DNA from: a virus
Virus record (IMG/VR): IMGVR_UViG_3300048928_000655
Span: 1 to 33,113 of that record
Direction: 5' to 3' (one strand)
Length of the DNA: 33,113 nt
Position numbers and translations under genes: made by a program. Shown piece after piece: positions 2,374-21,558 of the stretch (the stretch's first letter is position 1; every line of letters starts with the position of its first letter). Below the pieces are notes generated by a model. The model saw only the letters and a list, made by a program, of their open reading frames with translations, was not told the origin of the DNA and did no database searches.

Positions 2374-2450
2374 AGGCGCGTAGCTCAGCTGGTTAGAGCA
2401 CTACCTTGACATGGTAGGGGTCGTTGGTTCGAGTCCAATCGTGCCTACCA
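2374..2450 (+). tRNA. tRNA-Val (anticodon GAC)
   Basis: A 77-nt cloverleaf with encoded CCA. The acceptor arm AGGCGCG (2374-2380) pairs with CGTGCCT (2440-2446) with one G-T wobble, followed by ACCA. The TAGCTCAG D-arm is typical. The anticodon stem CTACC/GGTAG encloses the loop TTGACAT with anticodon GAC, which reads the valine codon GUC. The T-arm contains GGTTCGAGTCC. The gene is complete although the prophage is inserted at its 3' end, because the phage attachment core restores that half. Confidence 0.96.
2393..2450. other. candidate attL core in the tRNA-Val 3' half
   Basis: The integrase gene lies directly against the tRNA and its last codons (2393-2450) lie inside the tRNA, which is the usual arrangement when a tyrosine integrase uses a tRNA 3' end as attB. 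Only one copy of this sequence is in the window; the matching attR should lie past the right edge as a partial copy of the tRNA 3' half. The exact core limits cannot be drawn from one junction. Confidence 0.6.
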
Positions 2451-3619
2451 GTATTCTCGGTGTTTCCGGGCATGCTGGGATTATTTTGGGATAGTGACCC
2501 ATTCAGTATCGCTTCCATCTTGGCCTTTTCCCGGCCTCGATCGGCAGCATCAATCCATTTTGCGTACGTCGTGAAAACCATCTTGGGATTAGCATGGCCA
2601 AGCTGGCGAGCGATGTATGCAGGGTTGACTCCTGACATCAGCGCAATCGTTGCGTAGGTGTGCCTGGTCTGATAGGCGCGCCGGTGTCGAATTCCCTTTC
2701 TCTTCAAAGTCGGTGCCCAGTAGTGGTCTCTTTGCGACCGCTCGTCATGCCATGGCTTGCCCGTTACCGGGTTCTCAAACACTTCCTCTGTCTTCAAATA
2801 GGTGTGTTGCCTCATCGTGCGCAGCGCATTCATGGCGCGCTCGACCAGGTCGACGTCGCGGGTCTCGCTCGTCTTGAGCGCCTTGACGGTTCCCTTGAAC
2901 GTCTTGGCAACCTGGATGCGGATGGTGCCATGGTTCCAGTCAATATCCTGCCAGCGCACGGCGATCGCTTCCTCCGGCCGCACGCCTGTCGTAAACATGA
3001 ACTCGAAATAGGCGACGACTCTCGGATCGTATTGCTGTGCCATGTGCGCCAGCACGGACTCCATCTCTTCGGCGCTCAACGGATCCGGAGGTGACTTCTG
3101 GTGCTTGGTGTTGTTGACGCCGCGCATGGGGTTGTCCAGCTCCGGGCGGTCGCGGCCGAGCAATTCAAACAGGCCGCGCAGCGGTATGAGGTAGTTGTTG
3201 CACAGCTTGGCCGTTGGCCAAGGGTGCGAGCCGACGACGCCGGCGATTTCACTGTGGGGGATCGCGGCCAGCGATCGATCAGGTCCGAACTTCTTTTGCC
3301 AAAAGATTAGGGCATTCTTGTATTGCGATAGCGTTGCAGCGGAGAGGCGCCCCTTGGATGCCAGCCATTGATCCGACATCTGTTTCAACGTGACGTCGGC
3401 GTTCGGTTCGCTCTTCGCGATCGCCGAGTTGGGGAAGTAGGTGGCATAGTCAAAGATGCCGGCGGCGATCTTCTTCTTGATCTCGTCCGCCAGCCTGGTG
3501 GCGTACTTGATGTTGGCCGGGGTCGGCTCCATGTTCTCCAGCGTCTCCTTACGCTGCTTGCCCTGCCAGCTGAAGACGATCCGGATGCTGCGCTCACGGA
3601 CTTCTATCCCTCGACCCAT
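2393..3619 (-). CDS. int: phage tyrosine site-specific integrase
   Basis: Catalyses integration and excision between attP and the tRNA-Val attB. The 408-aa protein starts with a DUF3596-type arm-binding domain (MGRGIEVRERSIRIVFSWQG), followed by a core-binding helical domain (about 75-175) and the catalytic domain. Visible catalytic positions are Arg in TGVRPEE, the segment YQTRHTYA (Tyr where many relatives have His of HxxR, common in this subfamily), His in LGHA and the nucleophile Tyr in TTYAKW. GGAG lies about 8 bases before the ATG. The start overlaps the excisionase end by 16 bp, and the gene is the last of the leftward operon. The final 19 or so codons (from about residue 390) and the stop lie within the tRNA gene, so the C-terminal tail after TRTNDPYH is read antisense from tRNA sequence. 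Confidence 0.93.
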   Translation of the reverse strand: MGRGIEVRERSIRIVFSWQGKQRKETLENMEPTPANIKYATRLADEIKKKIAAGIFDYATYFPNSAIAKSEPNADVTLKQMSDQWLASKGRLSAATLSQYKNALIFWQKKFGPDRSLAAIPHSEIAGVVGSHPWPTAKLCNNYLIPLRGLFELLGRDRPELDNPMRGVNNTKHQKSPPDPLSAEEMESVLAHMAQQYDPRVVAYFEFMFTTGVRPEEAIAVRWQDIDWNHGTIRIQVAKTFKGTVKALKTSETRDVDLVERAMNALRTMRQHTYLKTEEVFENPVTGKPWHDERSQRDHYWAPTLKRKGIRHRRAYQTRHTYATIALMSGVNPAYIARQLGHANPKMVFTTYAKWIDAADRGREKAKMEAILNGSLSQNNPSMPGNTENTGRHDWTRTNDPYHVKVVL

Positions 3620-5268: not shown

Positions 5269-5708
5269 GGTGCCTCCGCCGCAGTCTGGATCAGGGCGTC
5301 GACGTAGTTCAGATTCATCGTCCGTGTCTCTGCCTTCAAGATCGCCAGCGCTTCACGCACCAGGTCGATGTCCGATTGAAAAATCATCATGCCGTACTTG
5401 AACTTGTTGGCCAGCTGACGGAGCGGGGCGGTCGGCATTTCGCGTTCGGAGATGTGCGCATGCAACTCGTACACCTCGGCGAAGCCAGCGATCGCTGGCG
5501 CGAGTTCGTACCATTCATGGCTGCTCGGCACCTGAAATACTGCAGTGTTGCCCTCGGCGTCGATATCGCCAGTCGTCTGGATAGTGGTGACGATCTGCTC
5601 CATCTGGCCGAACGCCGTGGCGAGTTTCCAGGGCATGCTTGCAATGGTGCGGGTGCCTGGGTCGATCCGCTTATGTGCGCGGCGGTCGCGTCGATTCCAG
5701 CGGCTCAT
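5265..5708 (-). CDS. phage protein of unknown function
   Basis: A 147-aa soluble protein. It starts MSRWNRRDRRAHKRI, a very basic N-terminus, followed by a mixed alpha/beta body without Cys clusters or membrane segments. The ATG at 5708 overlaps the ParB-like gene's stop by ATGA and was preferred over an upstream in-frame start that would run 66 bases into that gene. Position directly behind the ParB-like gene and coupled translation suggest a possible partner role, but nothing in the sequence proves it. Confidence 0.75.
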   Translation of the reverse strand: MSRWNRRDRRAHKRIDPGTRTIASMPWKLATAFGQMEQIVTTIQTTGDIDAEGNTAVFQVPSSHEWYELAPAIAGFAEVYELHAHISEREMPTAPLRQLANKFKYGMMIFQSDIDLVREALAILKAETRTMNLNYVDALIQTAAEAP

Positions 5709-7810
5709 TTTTCCTCCTTCGCGGTAGCGGTGTTCTTTTCTGCGGCCAGTTGTTCCGGCGTCTTGAACGGCCATGCGGACTTGGAAGGAGCCACCGGCTT
5801 GCTCAATGCGAACTCTGCAGCGCCGGCTTCGCGTTCAAACTTGGCGCGCTGAGCGCGACCGATGTTCCAGTGATCGTGCGTCGGCTCGGTCAGCGGGTAG
5901 GGATTCTCTTTCGACAGGTCGGTGCAGTCGTAGCCCTCCTTGTATGCAGGCTGCTTGTCCACATCAACCATGGACCAGTCCTGTTTCTTCGGATCTGCCG
6001 CAGGCGTCGCGGCGGGAGGGGTAGCTGCGGCGGGCTTGGCCGTTGCAGCAGCCTTCTTCGCCTTCGCAGGCGCTTTTGTTGCTGCAGGCTTAGCTGCCGC
6101 AGCGGTAGTCTTTGGTGCGGCGGCGTGAGCGTCGCTCTTGGCCCCTTTCGGTGTGGCAGTAGCGGGCTTCTTCTCCTTCTCCTTGGCCGCTGCCTTGATG
6201 CGTTCTGCGCGGAGCTTGCTGTTCGCTGCAGCCGTAGCTTCGGCCTTGTGTTGAGCTTTTGTCTTCGCCGCGTCGACGCCGTGTCGTTTTGCTGCCTCTG
6301 CCAGATCCGTAGGCATGTCGTCGTTATTGTTGTAGTAGCTGTTTGCTTGCGTGGAGCCGAAGATCGAAGCCGTCCAGATGACGTCTGCCAGTTGGCCAGT
6401 GCTGAGCGACAACAGCTTCTCTGCAAGTTCCTTTCGGCCTTCGTAGGTTGCAAGGCTGACGTCCCAACCAAGATACTTGACCAGCTTGCGGAGCGTGTTG
6501 TTCTCAGTGCGATGCAAGACATGGGCGCAGACCATCTGCCAGTCTTCAAATTGTGGACCCTTATCTTGCATCTTCGTCCGCACTTGGGAGAGCACGTCGA
6601 GGCGAATTTCTGTATTCAGTTTGGCCTTGCGGATGGCTTCTTTCTCGGATGCGCTCTGAGAGCTGACACTCTTGACCGATACGCCGAGATCCTTCATCAG
6701 GGGCTTGAGATCATCCATGCGGATGACTTCGACGACGTCCTGCGTGTGTGGGTTCCGGGCGACGATTGGGTCAATGCCAGCGGCCTTGGCGAGCTGAGCA
6801 AAGGTGCGTTTCTTAGGATCGGAATAGCAGGTGTCAGATGGCTTTTCAAAGCCGTCGCCCAGCGATGAATAGTATTGCGGGAATATCTTCTTTGCCGCAG
6901 TTGAGTCTTCGATGACGACACGGCCTGCTTCCTTGGCCCTGTTGATCTTTATCGTCGACCAGGCGGAACGCTTTTGTGCGAAGCAGGCGGTGTCCGTGCA
7001 GACGTCTGCACTGTCGACATCTGGAAACAAGTCAGGGTTGTTACCCGTACGCTTCGTGCACGTTGTGCACGCGCCGACCTTCGGCAGTAGCTTCTCGTCT
7101 TTGGGATTGAAGGGAGCCTCTTTCAATTTCAACATGAACTTGCGCTGGATGGTTGCGATAGCCACACGCTGAGAGACTGGGTCTCGGTTCTTATTGCCGG
7201 CAATATCCTCGCATGCCTCCATTTGCAACTTCGCTCCTGGGATCCGCGCAATCAGAACGGCCAGCGACGGCGTGAGACTTTTTGCGTAGAACAGTTTGCG
7301 AGCGCCATCGCACAAGTCCAGCAGCTTCATGCTCGCGTCGACGTATGCCTTGCTGCGGTTGATCTTGGCTGCAAGGTCGACGCGTTTGTACCCGTAGGTT
7401 TTGATCAGTTGCTCGAAACCCTCTGCTTCCTCCAATGGATGAAGGTCGCGCCGCTGCAGGTTTTCCAGCACCTGAATTTCATACACTTGCTGATCCGTCA
7501 GGGTGCGAATCAGAACCGGAATCTTCGTGAGGCCTGCGATGCCGGATGCTCTCCAGCGCTGCTCGCCAGCTACCACTTCCAAGTCTTGCGGCTCGGCCTT
7601 AGTCGGGGTAACGCGGCGCATCAGAATCGGTTGAATGATGCCGTGATCCTTGATGCTACCTGCCAGTTCTTTCAGGAAGCTGTCGTCGAAGAATTTGCGA
7701 GGATTGGTTTTTGAGGCGCGAGTGCGACTACGCTCTACGATGTCAAACTCATTGTCGTTGACGAGTTCAAATTTGCCATCGATGGCGGGCGTGGTGGTGG
7801 CGATTTCCAT
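5705..7810 (-). CDS. ParB/Spo0J-like nuclease-fold protein (PRTRC ParB-like), large
   Basis: A 701-aa protein with a clear ParB N-terminal domain: NPRK at residues 36-39, GEQRWRA at 82-88 and ENLQRRDLHPLEEA at 116-129, the three conserved boxes that bind CTP in ParB clamps, followed by a helical DNA-binding region (VDLAAKINRSKAYVDASMKLL). A Cys cluster near residues 250-283 (CTTC, then C-x4-C) may bind zinc, as in PRTRC-type ParB proteins. The C-terminal third has a lysine/alanine/proline-rich linker (about 540-630), histone-tail-like, then a short conserved end. No ParA gene is in the window. The ATG at 7810 was chosen for the AAGGA about 7 bases upstream. In known families such proteins load at parS palindromes and spread; one copy of the recurring palindrome lies inside this gene (6996-7011). 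A function in partition, DNA compaction or regulation is open. Confidence 0.85.
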   Translation of the reverse strand: MEIATTTPAIDGKFELVNDNEFDIVERSRTRASKTNPRKFFDDSFLKELAGSIKDHGIIQPILMRRVTPTKAEPQDLEVVAGEQRWRASGIAGLTKIPVLIRTLTDQQVYEIQVLENLQRRDLHPLEEAEGFEQLIKTYGYKRVDLAAKINRSKAYVDASMKLLDLCDGARKLFYAKSLTPSLAVLIARIPGAKLQMEACEDIAGNKNRDPVSQRVAIATIQRKFMLKLKEAPFNPKDEKLLPKVGACTTCTKRTGNNPDLFPDVDSADVCTDTACFAQKRSAWSTIKINRAKEAGRVVIEDSTAAKKIFPQYYSSLGDGFEKPSDTCYSDPKKRTFAQLAKAAGIDPIVARNPHTQDVVEVIRMDDLKPLMKDLGVSVKSVSSQSASEKEAIRKAKLNTEIRLDVLSQVRTKMQDKGPQFEDWQMVCAHVLHRTENNTLRKLVKYLGWDVSLATYEGRKELAEKLLSLSTGQLADVIWTASIFGSTQANSYYNNNDDMPTDLAEAAKRHGVDAAKTKAQHKAEATAAANSKLRAERIKAAAKEKEKKPATATPKGAKSDAHAAAPKTTAAAAKPAATKAPAKAKKAAATAKPAAATPPAATPAADPKKQDWSMVDVDKQPAYKEGYDCTDLSKENPYPLTEPTHDHWNIGRAQRAKFEREAGAAEFALSKPVAPSKSAWPFKTPEQLAAEKNTATAKEEK
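6996..7011. repeat. dispersed palindrome copy 1, GTGCAGACGTCTGCAC
   Basis: A perfect 16-bp palindrome inside the ParB-like gene, at the codons for its Cys-rich segment. It is read there as GCA GAC GTC TGC, a different codon phase from the other genic copies. Same core as positions 8479, 14825, 21996 and 28007. Confidence 0.9.
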
Positions 7811-7838
7811 GTGTTTTCCTTGGTTAGATGATGGGGCG

Positions 7839-8144
7839 TCAGACGTTTTCAGGGACGTAGAAAAGCAAAGCGCCAGAGGCGCCAACGGTGCGGTCGAGGC
7901 GGGGAAGGGTTACGGTGATCTGCCACGCGGTGCTGCCCTGCAGGCGCGGGGCCTGAAGAGCGCGCACCGGGGCGCTGACTTCGTAGCCCTTCGCTTCCAT
8001 GCGAGTGATCACCTTCGCAAGCGAGTTGGATTCGTCGCGAAGCAGGAGAGCGCCATGAGCTGCGCCGGCGTCGATTGCGTCGCTCAATGCCTGGATGGTG
8101 ATCAGGGCGGCCGGCGCTGGCATAAGAGGATGGTCCCGGCTCAT
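7839..8144 (-). CDS. small phage protein of unknown function
   Basis: A 101-aa protein with no recognised domain; alternating helical and strand segments, no Cys pairs and no membrane segment. The ATG at 8144 (MSRDHPLMPAP) is chosen because it overlaps the upstream stop by ATGA; the longer in-frame extension is a shadow of the neighbouring gene. It ends 28 bases before the ParB-like start, the only true gap in this operon, and that gap holds the ribosome binding site of the ParB-like gene. Confidence 0.68.
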   Translation of the reverse strand: MSRDHPLMPAPAALITIQALSDAIDAGAAHGALLLRDESNSLAKVITRMEAKGYEVSAPVRALQAPRLQGSTAWQITVTLPRLDRTVGASGALLFYVPENV

Positions 8145-9355: not shown

Positions 9356-9751
9356 CTACTTCGTATGCCGTCGCTCTGACAGTTCGGCGATTAATTCAGA
9401 GTTGGCTTGTTTCTGGTCTTCAAGATTCTTGAAGAACTCGTCTTGTTGCTTCTTAGTGAGTCCATCAAACAGCGTGAGAATTGCTTTTTGACGCTCCGAC
9501 AAACTTCCCCCGTCGGCTGTGTGCGCATCGTTTGCTGCAGACGGGATCTCGGTTTCTGCGCGCAGATACTCCGGGCTGACCTCCAAAGCATTGGCGATAT
9601 CGACCAGGCTCTCCCCGTAGCCTCTTAGTCCCGATTCAATATTGCCAATCGTCCCTTGTGACACGCCTGCTTTTAGGGCGAGCTGCGCCTGCGTTAGTTT
9701 TCTTAACTTCCGCGTGTCCTTGAGTCGTTTTCCGATGATGTTCGTCGTCAT
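9356..9751 (-). CDS. CI-like repressor, XRE-family, without peptidase domain
   Basis: A 131-aa protein with an N-terminal XRE helix-turn-helix (about residues 8-62: GKRLKDTRKLRKLTQAQLALKAGVS, then TIGNIESG) and a short C-terminal helical tail (ERQKAILTLFDGLTKKQQDEF). It should hold the lysogenic state by binding the ATCACTNNAGTGAT operators on both sides of its gene. Unlike lambda CI it has no S24/LexA self-cleaving domain, so direct RecA-driven autocleavage is not expected; induction would need another route. No Shine-Dalgarno sequence precedes the ATG, and a TTTAAT box lies only 5 bases upstream, so the message may be leaderless. It is divergent from the Cro-like gene. Confidence 0.85.
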   Translation of the reverse strand: MTTNIIGKRLKDTRKLRKLTQAQLALKAGVSQGTIGNIESGLRGYGESLVDIANALEVSPEYLRAETEIPSAANDAHTADGGSLSERQKAILTLFDGLTKKQQDEFFKNLEDQKQANSELIAELSERRHTK

Positions 9752-10431: not shown

Positions 10432-10887
10432 GTGAGTATTCATAAGGCGACACTCGGAATGATCCGAGCAATTGGTTGGGATGCGATGTGCGATAGCCTG
10501 ACCATGACGCGTCAGCAGCTGGAGAATCGGTTGTACGAACGCCGTGGCCAGGGCATTACAGTCGACCTCGCGCTTGAGATGCAAGCGGCAAGTGGGACAG
10601 CGCTGTTTGCTCAGGCCGTAGCGGTCGCCAGCGGCGGCTCGTTCGTCAAGCTGCCTGCCGGCATGGATGGCGACCAGGAGGAGTTGCTCGCCAAGTTCAA
10701 CCGTCTCTATACCCACGTCGGACTGCTGTCGGCTCGGTACGCTGAATACACGGCGGACAACGAAGTCGACAAGCGCGAGCGTGCCGACCTGATCGCGATT
10801 GGCGACGAGATATCACGGGCTACGCAAGAGTTGCTTGCGTTGACATTCCGGACCTTCTGCGCTCCTGATCAAGGGGCGGCCGAGTGA
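10432..10887 (+). CDS. YmfL-like phage regulatory protein
   Basis: A 151-aa protein resembling the YmfL family: HKATLGMIRAIGWDAMC, then LTMTRQQLENRLYERRGQ and VDLALEMQAASGTALFAQAVA, a predicted DNA-binding N-terminal half. In other prophages YmfL follows YdaS/Cro genes and is assumed to be a CII-like regulator of early expression; its precise action is not established. The GTG at 10432 was chosen (VSIHKAT...) with AAGGG about 9 bases upstream; the longer frame from 10369 is unlikely. The end overlaps the helicase start by GTGA. A repeated ATAACCAC (10384 and 10406) lies upstream. Confidence 0.78.
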   Translation: MSIHKATLGMIRAIGWDAMCDSLTMTRQQLENRLYERRGQGITVDLALEMQAASGTALFAQAVAVASGGSFVKLPAGMDGDQEELLAKFNRLYTHVGLLSARYAEYTADNEVDKRERADLIAIGDEISRATQELLALTFRTFCAPDQGAAE

Positions 10888-13394
10888 CGCTTGATGATTT
10901 CCCAGTTGTCGCCGCCGCTGCTCTGCAGTCCATTGATTCGCTGCTCTTTGAATGGTTTCCCAACGGCGTCATTGAGGGCGCGGAGTTTCGTATTGGTTCT
11001 GCTTCCGGCGAAGCCGGCAAATCTCTGAGTGTTCGCCTTCATGGCGAACGCGCAGGTTGGTGGTCAGATTTTTCCATGGACGGCGAAGCCGGCCGTGATC
11101 TCATTTCCCTTTACGCGGTAGCAAAGGGCGTTTCGACTGGGCGAGCCTGCGCGGAACTTGCCTCCCAGCTCGGCGTAGCGATCACCAACGAGGATGGTAC
11201 AAAATCCGTCCCGTCCTTGTTTTCAAAAAATCCACCAAACCGAGCGCCTGCGCAAGCCGGCAAAGGGGTACAAGCCAAGTCCGCGAAGAAACCGGCGACC
11301 GCTTGGGAGCCAATCGTCCCTGTGCCGGACAATGCCCCAGCGTACCCGGCAGCACATCCTATCCGTGGGTTGCCAGAGCGTCGCTGGGAATATCGTGACC
11401 AGGAGCGACGCTTGTTGGGAGTGGTATCGCGCTTCGTGACCTCCGAGGGCGACAAGGACATCATCCCTTGTGTCTACGCGAAGCACCCTGAGACGGGCAA
11501 GTGCGATTGGCGGTGGATTCAGTGGCGCGAACCTCGCCCACTGTACTTGCCGGGACCGCTCGTGCCGGGTCTGCCCGTGCTGGTGGTGGAGGGCGAGAAA
11601 TGCGCCGATGCGGCCTACGCACTGTTCCATGAGACTTGGAACGTAGTGTCGTGGCCGGGCGGCGGCAAGGCCGTCCATAAGGCCGACTGGTCCCCGCTGG
11701 CGGGATATGAAGTGCTGCTGTGGGCAGACGCGGACGCTCAGCTATACAAGGGCAATCACGCGCAAGCAGGCCAGATCAAGCCGGAGTGGGAGCAGCCCGG
11801 TATGAAGGCCATGCACAAGATCGCCGATATCCTGCGCCCGCTCGAATGCCCTGTGTCGTTCGTCGACATTCCTGAGCCGGGCATCAAGCCGGATGGTTGG
11901 GACATCGCGGACCTCATTCATGAAGATGGAGTGACGCCGGAGGACATCGACGCCTGGCTAAACAAACGACGGCCCCAAGCGGATGACGTTGCGGCGTCGG
12001 TCGCACAACAGGCGGAGGCGCCTGCGTCCATGGACGAGATTCCCCCATGGGTTGATGGACCTCCTGATGACGCTGTACCCCTAACCCCAGCTAGCGCGAA
12101 GGCATTGGACTGGCGCGCCCTGCGGGAGCTGATGATTCCGAATAGCTCTGGCGGCGTGAAAGCCTGCCGCGAGAATGTGTTTTTGGCCCTGAAGCATGAT
12201 GCCGCTCTGCAGGGCATTGTGGCTCGCGACACGTTTGCTGAGCTGCAGATGAAGAAACGCTCCCCGCCATGGCAATCGGATGGTGGGGAGTGGAACGAGG
12301 GCGATGACTTCCACCTTGGGATGTATTTGGCGCGGCGGTATGGCCTGGTCATGGCGTCGGTCGGCGAGATCGAGAAAGCCGTGGCGCAAATCGCTCGCGA
12401 GCATTCGTTCAATCCCGTTGCCGACTACATGAACGCCTGCGCCGACAAGTGGGATGGAACAGCTCGCGTTGAAACAGCCTTCGTCACCTATTGGGGTGTA
12501 GAGGATTCTGAATACGTCAGATTGATCTCGACGATGTTCCTGGTCGGCCTTGCCGCCCGGTCGTTCTATCCGGGCGTGAAGCATGACTGCGCGCCGGTGT
12601 TTGAGGGCGGGCAGGGGCGAGGCAAGTCGACCGCGCTCAGCGTACTGGCTGGTGATTGGTATGCGGATACGCCGTTCCGAATGGGCGAGAAAGACGGGTA
12701 CCTGTCTATTCAGGGCGTCCTGCTCTATGAGATCGCCGAGCTGGAGCAATTCAATCGATCCGAGGTCACGGCGGTGAAGGCATTTATGTCGAGCCGGAAT
12801 GACCGCTACCGTGAGCCATATGGCCGCCGCGTGAAGAACGTACCGCGCCGCACCTTGTTCGCTGCGACCACCAACGAGAACCAATACTTCAAAGACCCAA
12901 CCGGCAATCGCCGATTCTGGCCGGTCAACGTCGGCCGCATCGATATCGACAAGCTCACTGCGGACCGTGATCAGCTGTTCGGCGAGGCGGTCCATCTGAT
13001 GCGTGCAAAGACCAAGTGGTATCCGACGCAGGAGCAGCAGATCAGGCTCATCAACGTTCACCAGGAAGACCGGGAGATTCCAGACCCATGGATCGGTCGT
13101 CTGTACGACTACTGCGAAGGCATCGATGGCGAAGGCAGGATCGTGGCCGTCAACCAGCTGGACAAGGTAACCGTCCGTGAGCTGCTGACCAGGGCGTTGC
13201 ACATCGAAATAGGAAAGTTGGGGCCGGCCAAGACGGAGACCATGCGGATTTCTACCTGCATGCGCAAGCTGGGTTGGCGCAAGGACAGGCAGGCATCGGG
13301 TGCGCGGGAATACTTCTACGAACGCATCAAGGAAGAGGCCGTCAGCGTGCAAACGTCGACGGGCGGAGAGGTGGATCATGATCTGCCGCTATAG
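10884..13394 (+). CDS. phage primase/helicase, VapE (VirE) family
   Basis: An 836-aa replication protein. The N-terminal half contains a primase-like part with a Toprim-type core: LVVEGEKC with Glu near residue 236, and the pair D282/D284 in LLWADAD. The C-terminal half is a VapE/VirE-type P-loop domain, Walker A GGQGRGKST at residues 575-583, followed by GVLLYEIAELEQF (Walker B-like) and the family segment TTNENQYFKDPTGNRRFWPV. Such proteins prime and unwind phage or satellite DNA at the origin. The start is GTG, overlapping the upstream TGA by 4 bp. Directly behind it is the CCAACCT/AGGTTGG repeat cluster, so an origin next to its replication protein is plausible. Confidence 0.9.
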   Translation: MTLDDFPVVAAAALQSIDSLLFEWFPNGVIEGAEFRIGSASGEAGKSLSVRLHGERAGWWSDFSMDGEAGRDLISLYAVAKGVSTGRACAELASQLGVAITNEDGTKSVPSLFSKNPPNRAPAQAGKGVQAKSAKKPATAWEPIVPVPDNAPAYPAAHPIRGLPERRWEYRDQERRLLGVVSRFVTSEGDKDIIPCVYAKHPETGKCDWRWIQWREPRPLYLPGPLVPGLPVLVVEGEKCADAAYALFHETWNVVSWPGGGKAVHKADWSPLAGYEVLLWADADAQLYKGNHAQAGQIKPEWEQPGMKAMHKIADILRPLECPVSFVDIPEPGIKPDGWDIADLIHEDGVTPEDIDAWLNKRRPQADDVAASVAQQAEAPASMDEIPPWVDGPPDDAVPLTPASAKALDWRALRELMIPNSSGGVKACRENVFLALKHDAALQGIVARDTFAELQMKKRSPPWQSDGGEWNEGDDFHLGMYLARRYGLVMASVGEIEKAVAQIAREHSFNPVADYMNACADKWDGTARVETAFVTYWGVEDSEYVRLISTMFLVGLAARSFYPGVKHDCAPVFEGGQGRGKSTALSVLAGDWYADTPFRMGEKDGYLSIQGVLLYEIAELEQFNRSEVTAVKAFMSSRNDRYREPYGRRVKNVPRRTLFAATTNENQYFKDPTGNRRFWPVNVGRIDIDKLTADRDQLFGEAVHLMRAKTKWYPTQEQQIRLINVHQEDREIPDPWIGRLYDYCEGIDGEGRIVAVNQLDKVTVRELLTRALHIEIGKLGPAKTETMRISTCMRKLGWRKDRQASGAREYFYERIKEEAVSVQTSTGGEVDHDLPL

Positions 13395-13484
13395 GTCGGG
13401 AATGAATCGTCAGGTACCATTGAGCCAGGGATCGTGCGCGCATCAGTCGCGTGCGGAAAAGGCCTATGCACCTGCTGATTCCTC

Positions 13485-13756
13485 CCAACCTCCCAACCTC
13501 GTCCAACCTTTGATTTTTAAGGTTGGACGGCGGAAAGTCGCTCCGGTGGCCGATCCGCCAACCTCCCAACCTTTTGCAAAAAAATCCTCGCACACACATA
13601 CGCGCCCGCGTGTGTACGCGACGGCTACCGCTTTATTTTTTTTCTATTCCAATCAAAAAGAGGTTAGCGAGGTTAGGAGGTTGGCAAGACCAACACCGAA
13701 GCGGATTACAGCCGTCCAACCTTTCGCCCAACCTTTTCTTGTTCTGAGGAGGTTGG
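13485..13756. repeat. CCAACCT/AGGTTGG cluster, candidate replication origin
   Basis: A 366-bp stretch without a convincing gene (13395-13760) contains ten exact copies of the heptamer CCAACCT or its complement: forward at 13485, 13493, 13503, 13558, 13566, 13716 and 13728; reverse at 13520, 13678 and 13750. Two more (13661, 13670) differ by one base. Copies 13503 and 13520 form a perfect 10-bp hairpin with an 8-base loop (13501-13528). A/T-rich runs (about 13576, and 13632-13643) lie inside. The density and the place behind the primase-helicase fit an iteron-type origin. The last copy also forms part of the ribosome binding site of the next gene. Confidence 0.65.
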
Positions 13757-13760
13757 TCGA

Positions 13761-14045
13761 ATGAAGGATATGCGCAACGACATGCCAACAATTTCGGGAA
13801 TCGTCGACGATCTGCGGCGGCAGTACGGGCTGCTGCCGATCGACCGACAGATACGGCGAGCCATGAGAGGCGAACCGACGTTTTTTGCCAAAGAGAACGG
13901 CCACACCATCGGGACGCCGAGCAAGCGCGGAACGGTCGAGGTCTACTACGACGACCGAGGGATAAGCCAGACGCGCCCGGTAGTGATCCCGGCAACGTAC
14001 ATCGAATTCACGCTGCCTGAAGGCAAGCCAACCAGGGGAAAGTAA
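13761..14045 (+). CDS. phage protein of unknown function (94 aa)
   Basis: A 94-aa protein with a basic helical middle (DLRRQYGLLPIDRQIRRAMRG) and a C-terminal beta-like part (VEVYYDD...PATYIEFTL). No function is recognised. GAGGAGG lies 8 bases before the ATG, a strong ribosome binding site. It overlaps the next start by one base (TAATG), so the two are probably co-translated. Confidence 0.7.
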   Translation: MKDMRNDMPTISGIVDDLRRQYGLLPIDRQIRRAMRGEPTFFAKENGHTIGTPSKRGTVEVYYDDRGISQTRPVVIPATYIEFTLPEGKPTRGK

Positions 14046-21144: not shown

Positions 21145-21558
21145 ATGGATATTAAGGTGAAAGCACTGCAGTCGTTCGTTCACGGCCGCTTGGGCATGTC
21201 CAAGGGGACGGAGCAGCTGGTCGCGGAGGCGATTGCGAAGGATCTCGTTAAAGCCGGCCTGGTCGTCGCAGCTAGCCCGGATGTGGCTGCGCAGAAGAGG
21301 GTTGCGGCAGACAAGCCCACTGGCGAGAAAGCGTCGAGCGGAAGCCGGAAGAAACCCGCACAGGGCGGCGACAAGGAGCCGTCCAGCAAGCCACCTGCTG
21401 GCAGCACCGAGGGCGGCACTGAACCCGGCACTGAAGGCGGCACCGAAACCGGCACCGAGGGCGGCACCGATACCGGTACCGAAACCGGTACCGAAACCGG
21501 TACCGAAACCGGTACCGAAGGCAGCACCGAGTCGAAAGACCAGAGCGAGGAGCAGTAA
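21145..21558 (+). CDS. head-region protein with variable acidic repeat tail
   Basis: A 137-aa protein. The first 45 residues (MDIKVKALQSFVHGRLGMSKGTEQLVAEAIAKDLVKAGLV) look folded and match a small protein type found between capsid and connector genes, function unknown. The remaining part is low complexity: a Lys/Ser/Gly linker then eleven tetrapeptides of the GTE type. AGGAGAG lies a few bases before the ATG. An exposed or flexible head decoration or adaptor is possible; nothing shows it directly. Confidence 0.72.
   Translation: MDIKVKALQSFVHGRLGMSKGTEQLVAEAIAKDLVKAGLVVAASPDVAAQKRVAADKPTGEKASSGSRKKPAQGGDKEPSSKPPAGSTEGGTEPGTEGGTETGTEGGTDTGTETGTETGTETGTEGSTESKDQSEEQ
21400..21531 (+). repeat. 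12-bp tandem repeat, eleven units in frame
   Basis: Units encode GSTE, GGTE, PGTE, GGTE, TGTE, GGTD, TGTE four times, GSTE. Three copies in a row (21475-21510) are identical at DNA level (GGTACCGAAACC). In-frame unit length means copy number can change by slippage without breaking the gene. Confidence 0.9.

Follow-up and report, generated by a model that had tools for sequence, protein, structure and literature searches.

A candidate iteron-type replication origin behind the VapE primase-helicase gene of a contractile-tailed temperate phage

Positions 13421–13756 of the window (the whole stretch of 33,113 nucleotides analysed here) very probably represent the replication origin of a prophage, whose short repeats, or iterons, would be bound by the C-terminal end of the VapE-type primase-helicase encoded directly upstream. 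The sequence-only reading had proposed a replication origin for part of this region, and the proposal is now supported by the conservation of the element together with VapE, by its iteron-origin layout and by homology to PriRep1 from SaPI. An iteron origin read by VapE is the best reading, because the VapE helicase matches PriRep1, whose relatives bind iterons located behind their own gene.

The window is an IMG/VR virus record close to the Herbaspirillum prophage L001, with which it shares a 93% identical VapE. Its genes include those for an integrase, a ParB-like protein, a repressor, a cII-like protein, VapE, terminase, portal, capsid, tail sheath, tape measure and baseplate, a set that identifies it as a whole temperate phage with a contractile tail and not as a satellite. 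A tRNA-Val gene (2374–2450) overlaps the end of the phage integrase gene (2393–3619), an overlap which is likely to be the attachment site. A second local peak of repeats is found at 21145–21558, where a small protein encoded beside the capsid gene has a C-terminus of repeated Gly-Thr-Glu units.

The VapE protein holds a DnaG-like zinc-binding/TOPRIM N-terminus, a VapE (SF3/AAA+) helicase and a C-terminal winged helix at about residues 735–815. Profile comparisons match residues 21–101 with the DnaG zinc-binding domain (1d0q, 2au3) and residues about 390–740 with the helicase of SaPI PriRep1 (PDB 7pds, E=4.6e-89), which is also the best Foldseek match (E=4.5e-30) of the AlphaFold model (mean pLDDT 86). 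This model exhibits a helix-helix-hairpin end at 735–814, predicted to be of the winged-helix kind. Phages commonly encode replication proteins of the VapE type, and 1052 records of the phage collection match this one.

Repeats and modules behind the VapE gene

The ten exact copies of CCAACCT/AGGTTGG in 272 bp on which the original proposal was built were all recovered by a sequence scan, and the two copies with one change are both AGGTTAG (13661–13667 and 13670–13676). In 2000 dinucleotide shuffles of the spacer, this heptamer appeared at most twice (mean 0.055) and no 7-mer of any kind occurred more than five times, versus ten here. The whole window contains 14 exact heptamers against 2.9 expected (100 shuffles, maximum 9). 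The perfect hairpin reported at 13501–13528, where GTCCAACCTT (13501–13510) pairs with AAGGTTGGAC (13519–13528), exists, and its stem is in fact of 11 bp (13500–13529) when the C13500–G13529 pair is counted. The A/T-rich runs were likewise borne out, with a GC content of 0.325 at 13620–13659, around the run listed in Table 1. What required revision was the unit itself: the heptamer copies are real, while the conserved unit is longer, GTCCAACCT, and the cluster is only a part of the larger conserved element at 13421–13756.

Table 1. Features of the putative origin and its surroundings in the window
Feature	Position	Strand	Description
VapE-type primase-helicase, presumed initiator	10884..13394	+	836 aa; PF05272 E=7e-72
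Linker frame	13402..13764	+	open through the whole putative origin; stop overlaps next start (ATGA); peptide not conserved
Hairpin H	13421..13465	+	outer stem, 5'-AGGGAU / 5'-GGAAAA internal loop, inner stem; covariation, model R1 57 bits
Forward CCAACCT copies	13485, 13493, 13503, 13558, 13566, 13716, 13728	+	exact
Reverse AGGTTGG copies	13520, 13678, 13750	-	exact
Outer left iterons	13485..13509	+	three forward copies (13485, 13493, 13503); same layout in L001, L003, L008
Left module	13520..13572	+	AGGTTGGACGGC-N3-AA-N-CCGC-like ... CCAACCTCCCAACCT; one reverse and two forward iterons
Alternating purine-pyrimidine (Z-DNA-prone) tract	13588..13620		run length compared with shuffles
A/T-rich, pyrimidine-rich run, presumed melting site	13631..13659		GC content
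Inner right iterons	13661..13684	-	three reverse (AGGTTAG, AGGTTAG, AGGTTGG); same triple in L001, L003, L008, L015
Right module	13678..13722	-	inverted copy of left module; 54-nt inverted repeat, 76%
Outer right iteron	13728..13734	+	exact copy
Last iteron	13750..13756	-	overlaps ribosome-binding region of next gene (ATG 13761); same place in relatives

Two sets of iterons (13485–13572 and 13661–13756) flank the A/T-rich run. Each set contains one of two composite modules (consensus AGGTTGGACGGCTGGAACCCGCATGGATACTGG..CGYCCAACCTCCC), which lie in inverted orientation about 180–195 bp apart and in which AGGTTRGACGGC and AA-N-CC are nearly invariant. Between them sit the A/T-rich run and the alternating purine-pyrimidine tract, whose longest run averages 24.5 nt over 65 loci, compared to 9.2 nt in shuffles, with 55 of the 65 loci matched by no more than 5 of 100 shuffles. 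The tract and the A/T-rich run are the places where the strands would most naturally open.

The two arms of one element agree at 16.9 of 26 positions, compared to 15.6 of 26 between elements, a difference above all 2000 shuffles in which the contribution of relatedness is still included. A long-range RNA stem between the arms was considered and rejected, since mismatches of the G-T type (76) are fewer than those of the A-C type (135), a pattern unlike that accepted in paired RNA. A local inner stem inside each module was discarded as well: its pairing is no higher than independence predicts, and it exhibits no covariation. Because of these mismatch types and the lack of local covariation, the two modules look like duplicated protein-binding DNA sites rather than an RNA stem.

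By homology with SaPI Rep, binding through the C-terminal domain, self-loading and origin function are all predicted for VapE and its element. The winged-helix end of the 836-aa protein would bind the GTCCAACCT iterons of both inverted modules, as proposed by analogy with SaPI Rep, and hexamers assembled at the modules would melt the A/T-rich centre. VapE would then load itself as the replicative helicase, again as in SaPI Rep, while its fused DnaG-like primase would make the primers; the hairpin H that precedes the repeats might conceivably serve this primase half, for instance as a single-strand priming site. The sequence-only reading had also suggested looking for a GC-skew switch at the spacer. 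None is present, the skew staying positive across 10–33 kb; for a temperate phage in its integrated state, this result speaks neither for nor against an origin.

Conservation of the element and its tie to VapE

Alignment of the motif in related phages, suggested earlier as a check, revealed that it is kept in those with the same helicase. All relatives with 56–93% identical VapE hold the cluster between the VapE stop codon and the next gene, and the layout is retained over VapE identities of 27–93%. The shared order comprises three forward iterons, one reverse, a composite arm, two forward, the tract, three reverse, the inverted composite arm, two forward and one reverse, with single copies degenerate or missing in some relatives.

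The same association was recovered independently of any protein information. A DNA-only pattern derived from the module arm (AGGTTNGACGGC-N3-AANCCGC) was run on IMG/VR and matched 73 stretches, 61 of which have a VapE ORF within the DNA retrieved. The remaining 12 comprise eight where the fetched DNA or the contig is cut at its end, two belonging to a group in which the element is displaced and two chance matches, located inside another gene (L146 and L170). In an order-wide scan of 399 genomes, the module was present in three. Comparison of the relatives' spacers with phage and plasmid records by nucleotide similarity gave no match, since only short motifs of the element are conserved. In two VapE relatives, L190 (10196–10600) and L191, the stop codon is followed by only one arm and by few iterons, possibly the remains of decayed origins. 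The contig of another VapE phage, L029, bears an Rfam sRNA-Xcc1 match just above threshold (9469–9557).

Although the element lies directly 3' of the VapE gene in the window and in nearly all informative relatives, a complete copy including H is found away from VapE in L149 (about 2800–2965), L195, L172 and L178. In L149 it is separated from VapE by about 3.4 kb, between an antirepressor-like gene and HNH/terminase genes. As judged from these sequences, the whole element, hairpin H included, travels as a unit. Adjacency to VapE is thus not obligatory, and the displacement fits an origin.

This distribution also bears on whether the repeats could instead be an operator or leader of the downstream operon, controlling the gene at 13761 through the binding of a regulator or through RNA folding. 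Such a role would agree with the last iteron overlapping the start region and the ribosome-binding site of that gene, and with a reading frame through the element that is kept open up to an ATGA. However, several unrelated families follow the element downstream, whereas the protein encoded upstream is VapE in nearly all cases, and in L149 and its relatives the element has other neighbours altogether. RNA folding is further disfavoured by the arms, whose pairing is not enriched in G-U type pairs on the coding strand, and by the module stem, which lacks covariation. A role as operator or leader is therefore considered improbable.

The iteron sequence itself points to the part of VapE that would read it. 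The letters of the iteron tend to switch in concert within an element, giving GTCCAACCT, GTCTAACCT or GTCCTACCT, although C and T forms occur together in some elements, among them that of the window. Most elements are of the CCAACCT type, while CTAACCT is found in L003 and L014, CCTACCT in L029, CCATACCT in L217 and GTCCCTACC in L269. In L228–L231, the front half of VapE is unrelated (Prim-Pol/PriCT_2 or Toprim_3), yet the iteron is GTCCAACC. These four loci form a natural domain-swap series in which GTCCAACC is kept and H is absent. Since the iteron is retained through these swaps of the front half, the iteron type follows the helicase/C-terminal half of VapE, and its concerted switching would provide a natural code for the specificity of VapE C-terminal domains.

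The same behaviour argues against the repeats serving the ParB-like protein (5705–7885) as a parS-like partition site or in copy control. A ParB-like protein is present in the window as well as in Aval and VarioGold; nevertheless, the element follows VapE, and its iteron switches with the VapE type. In addition, parS sites are usually perfect palindromes of 14–16 bp and not arrays around an A/T-rich centre. A partition or copy-control function is consequently regarded as very unlikely.

Hairpin H and the linker frame

Between VapE and the repeats, directly 3' of the VapE gene, lies the hairpin H (CCAGGGAT-stem-GGAAAAGG). Over 32 gapless sequences its 15 pairs are 86% paired, with two-sided changes in 42 cells compared to 18 in shuffles. 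The covariation score is 0.257 versus 0.135, a value reached by none of 500 shuffles, and structures slid along the alignment score at most 0.109. Among wider relatives, the outer stem is wholly changed (GACC/GGTC, GAGC/GCTC, GATC/GATC), while AGNGA and GAAAA remain unchanged. Nucleotides rather than amino acids are conserved here: CAG, GGA and TCG are invariant at their third positions in the 32 aligned sequences, a G/A/C change falls at a first codon position, and GGAAAAGG is read in three phases among relatives.

A search pattern for H with a free gap proved too loose on its own, matching the unrelated L075, L073 and L043, and the specific AGCGA form was used. It recovered 14 stretches, in 13 of which H starts 2 nt past the last sense codon of VapE, which is to say inside the stop codon; the fourteenth lies at the end of its fetched stretch, with no VapE in view. 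In L003 (8622–8729) and L015 (3323–3541), H is tandemly duplicated together with its flanking sequence. None of the Rfam 15 families matched the element or H above the gathering threshold in the window and 22 relatives, and the matches to radC, mir-1789 and mir-363, weak and far below thresholds, were rejected. Candidate structured nucleic acids near helicase genes have reportedly been described under the name 'ssNA-helicase', whereas the comparison of H covered Rfam families.

H accompanies 50 of the 71 VapE genes with a DnaG-like front half and none of the 52 with other front halves (shuffle rate 0.03%), a count uncorrected for relatedness; the scan overlooked slightly deviating forms of H in a few of the 21 negatives. 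Together with the natural swaps, which lose H with the front half and keep the iteron, this split raises the tentative idea that H is a new single-strand element with an AGNGA/GAAAA internal loop and covarying stems, a priming site recognised by the DnaG-like half, so that VapE would read H with this half and the iterons with its helicase/C-terminal half. This remains rather doubtful, and a somewhat stronger case, though still short of an even chance, can be made for H being a structured RNA in the vapE messenger, acting in protection of the 3' end, reinitiation or antitermination independently of replication. The strong covariation, G-U pairs on the coding strand included, the frequent construction of H onto the VapE stop codon (a gap of 2 in 13 of 14 loci) and the open linker frame that begins beside H would all suit a messenger function. 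On the other hand, H moves with the putative origin away from vapE in L149, and its restriction to one type of front half is more natural for a replication element, even though shared ancestry may explain it. A messenger role of this kind would bear on H alone and leaves the reading of the iterons as the origin intact.

The spacer had been described as lacking a convincing gene. This holds insofar as the peptide is not conserved, but one forward frame does run through it and is kept open. Counted over 53 elements, stops number 39 in the frame shifted one base forward of VapE, compared to 210 and 181 in the other two, and in 37 of the elements this frame has no stop at all over 350 nt. With spacer lengths of 271–430, this linker frame ends in an ATGA with the next gene in many loci, and the next start is in its phase in 28 of 42 loci, according to an automatic and rough assignment of starts. 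These observations would favour the region being a gene and its repeats coding repeats, and a conserved open frame had been named beforehand as a sign against the origin. The frame is conserved in form but not in substance: its pN/pS of 0.62–1.11 is like that of the other two frames, and the reading frame in which a given DNA motif falls varies among relatives, the peptides varying accordingly, as also seen for the phases of H. Because selection on the peptide is absent, the open frame does not overturn the reading as an iteron origin, and a coding artefact is held to be most unlikely. The frame may instead lead ribosomes across the origin into the next gene, its product not mattering.

A different stretch of about 50 codons is conserved between VapE and the iterons in a clade including the Acidovorax phage Aval (L005, 7639–7791; L215, L218, L219 and L227). 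It ends in CGAVAGxSxHAPMT*, holds stem-like segments, and is annotated as gp17 in Aval.

Relation to known replication origins

Primase-helicase initiators acting on short repeated sites are exemplified by the alpha protein of phage P4, whose ori and crr hold such sites in two arrays. These arrays are separate sites with an iteron different from GTCCAACCT. In the literature searched, no description was found of origins of VapE-type proteins in complete phages.

The archaeal plasmid pRN1 resembles the element in having a cis element with a stem-loop directly behind the gene of a fused primase-helicase (orf904), and origins of this type have also been proposed for BIP-1 phages (PMC4234260). However, pRN1 has a single stem-loop of 100 bp, no iterons and an AEP primase. 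The putative origin of SCCmec Cch2 is similar in that its helicase is self-loading and, as an isolated C-terminal domain, binds AAGTG iterons immediately behind its own gene (PMC7581432), although Cch2 belongs to a different helicase subfamily (D5-like) and has three iterons of different sequence.

The closest resemblance is to the origins of PICIs and SaPIs, where a homologous VapE-type helicase is encoded in front of two iteron sets flanking an A/T-rich region (PMC6092414, PMC7581432). In both SaPI Rep and Cch2, the C-terminal domain binds the iterons directly behind their own genes (PMC7581432). The origin of Gram-negative PICIs always lies 3' of pri-rep and consists of two iteron sets with an A/T-rich region between them; plasmid maintenance was assayed with a cloned pri-rep-ori segment, and the authors called the organisation unique to those islands (PMC6092414). 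Unlike these islands, the window represents a complete contractile-tailed phage and not a satellite, and the front half of its initiator is DnaG-like rather than AEP. The dependence on a helper phage for virion genes that characterizes PICIs does not apply, since portal, capsid, sheath, tape measure and baseplate genes are all present. Further differences are the GTCCAACCT iteron, the inverted composite modules, the alternating tract and the extra hairpin H.

By analogy, the element would thus be an initiator-adjacent iteron origin of PICI-type organisation in a complete phage, which is itself not a PICI. What is new here is the GTCCAACCT iteron, the inverted composite modules and the accompanying hairpin, which matched no described family. 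The element offers a searchable origin consensus for a large group of uncultured phages, and H, a covarying hairpin without a match in Rfam 15, comes with a testable partner. The presence of a PICI-like origin layout in full phages, finally, bears on where those islands came from.
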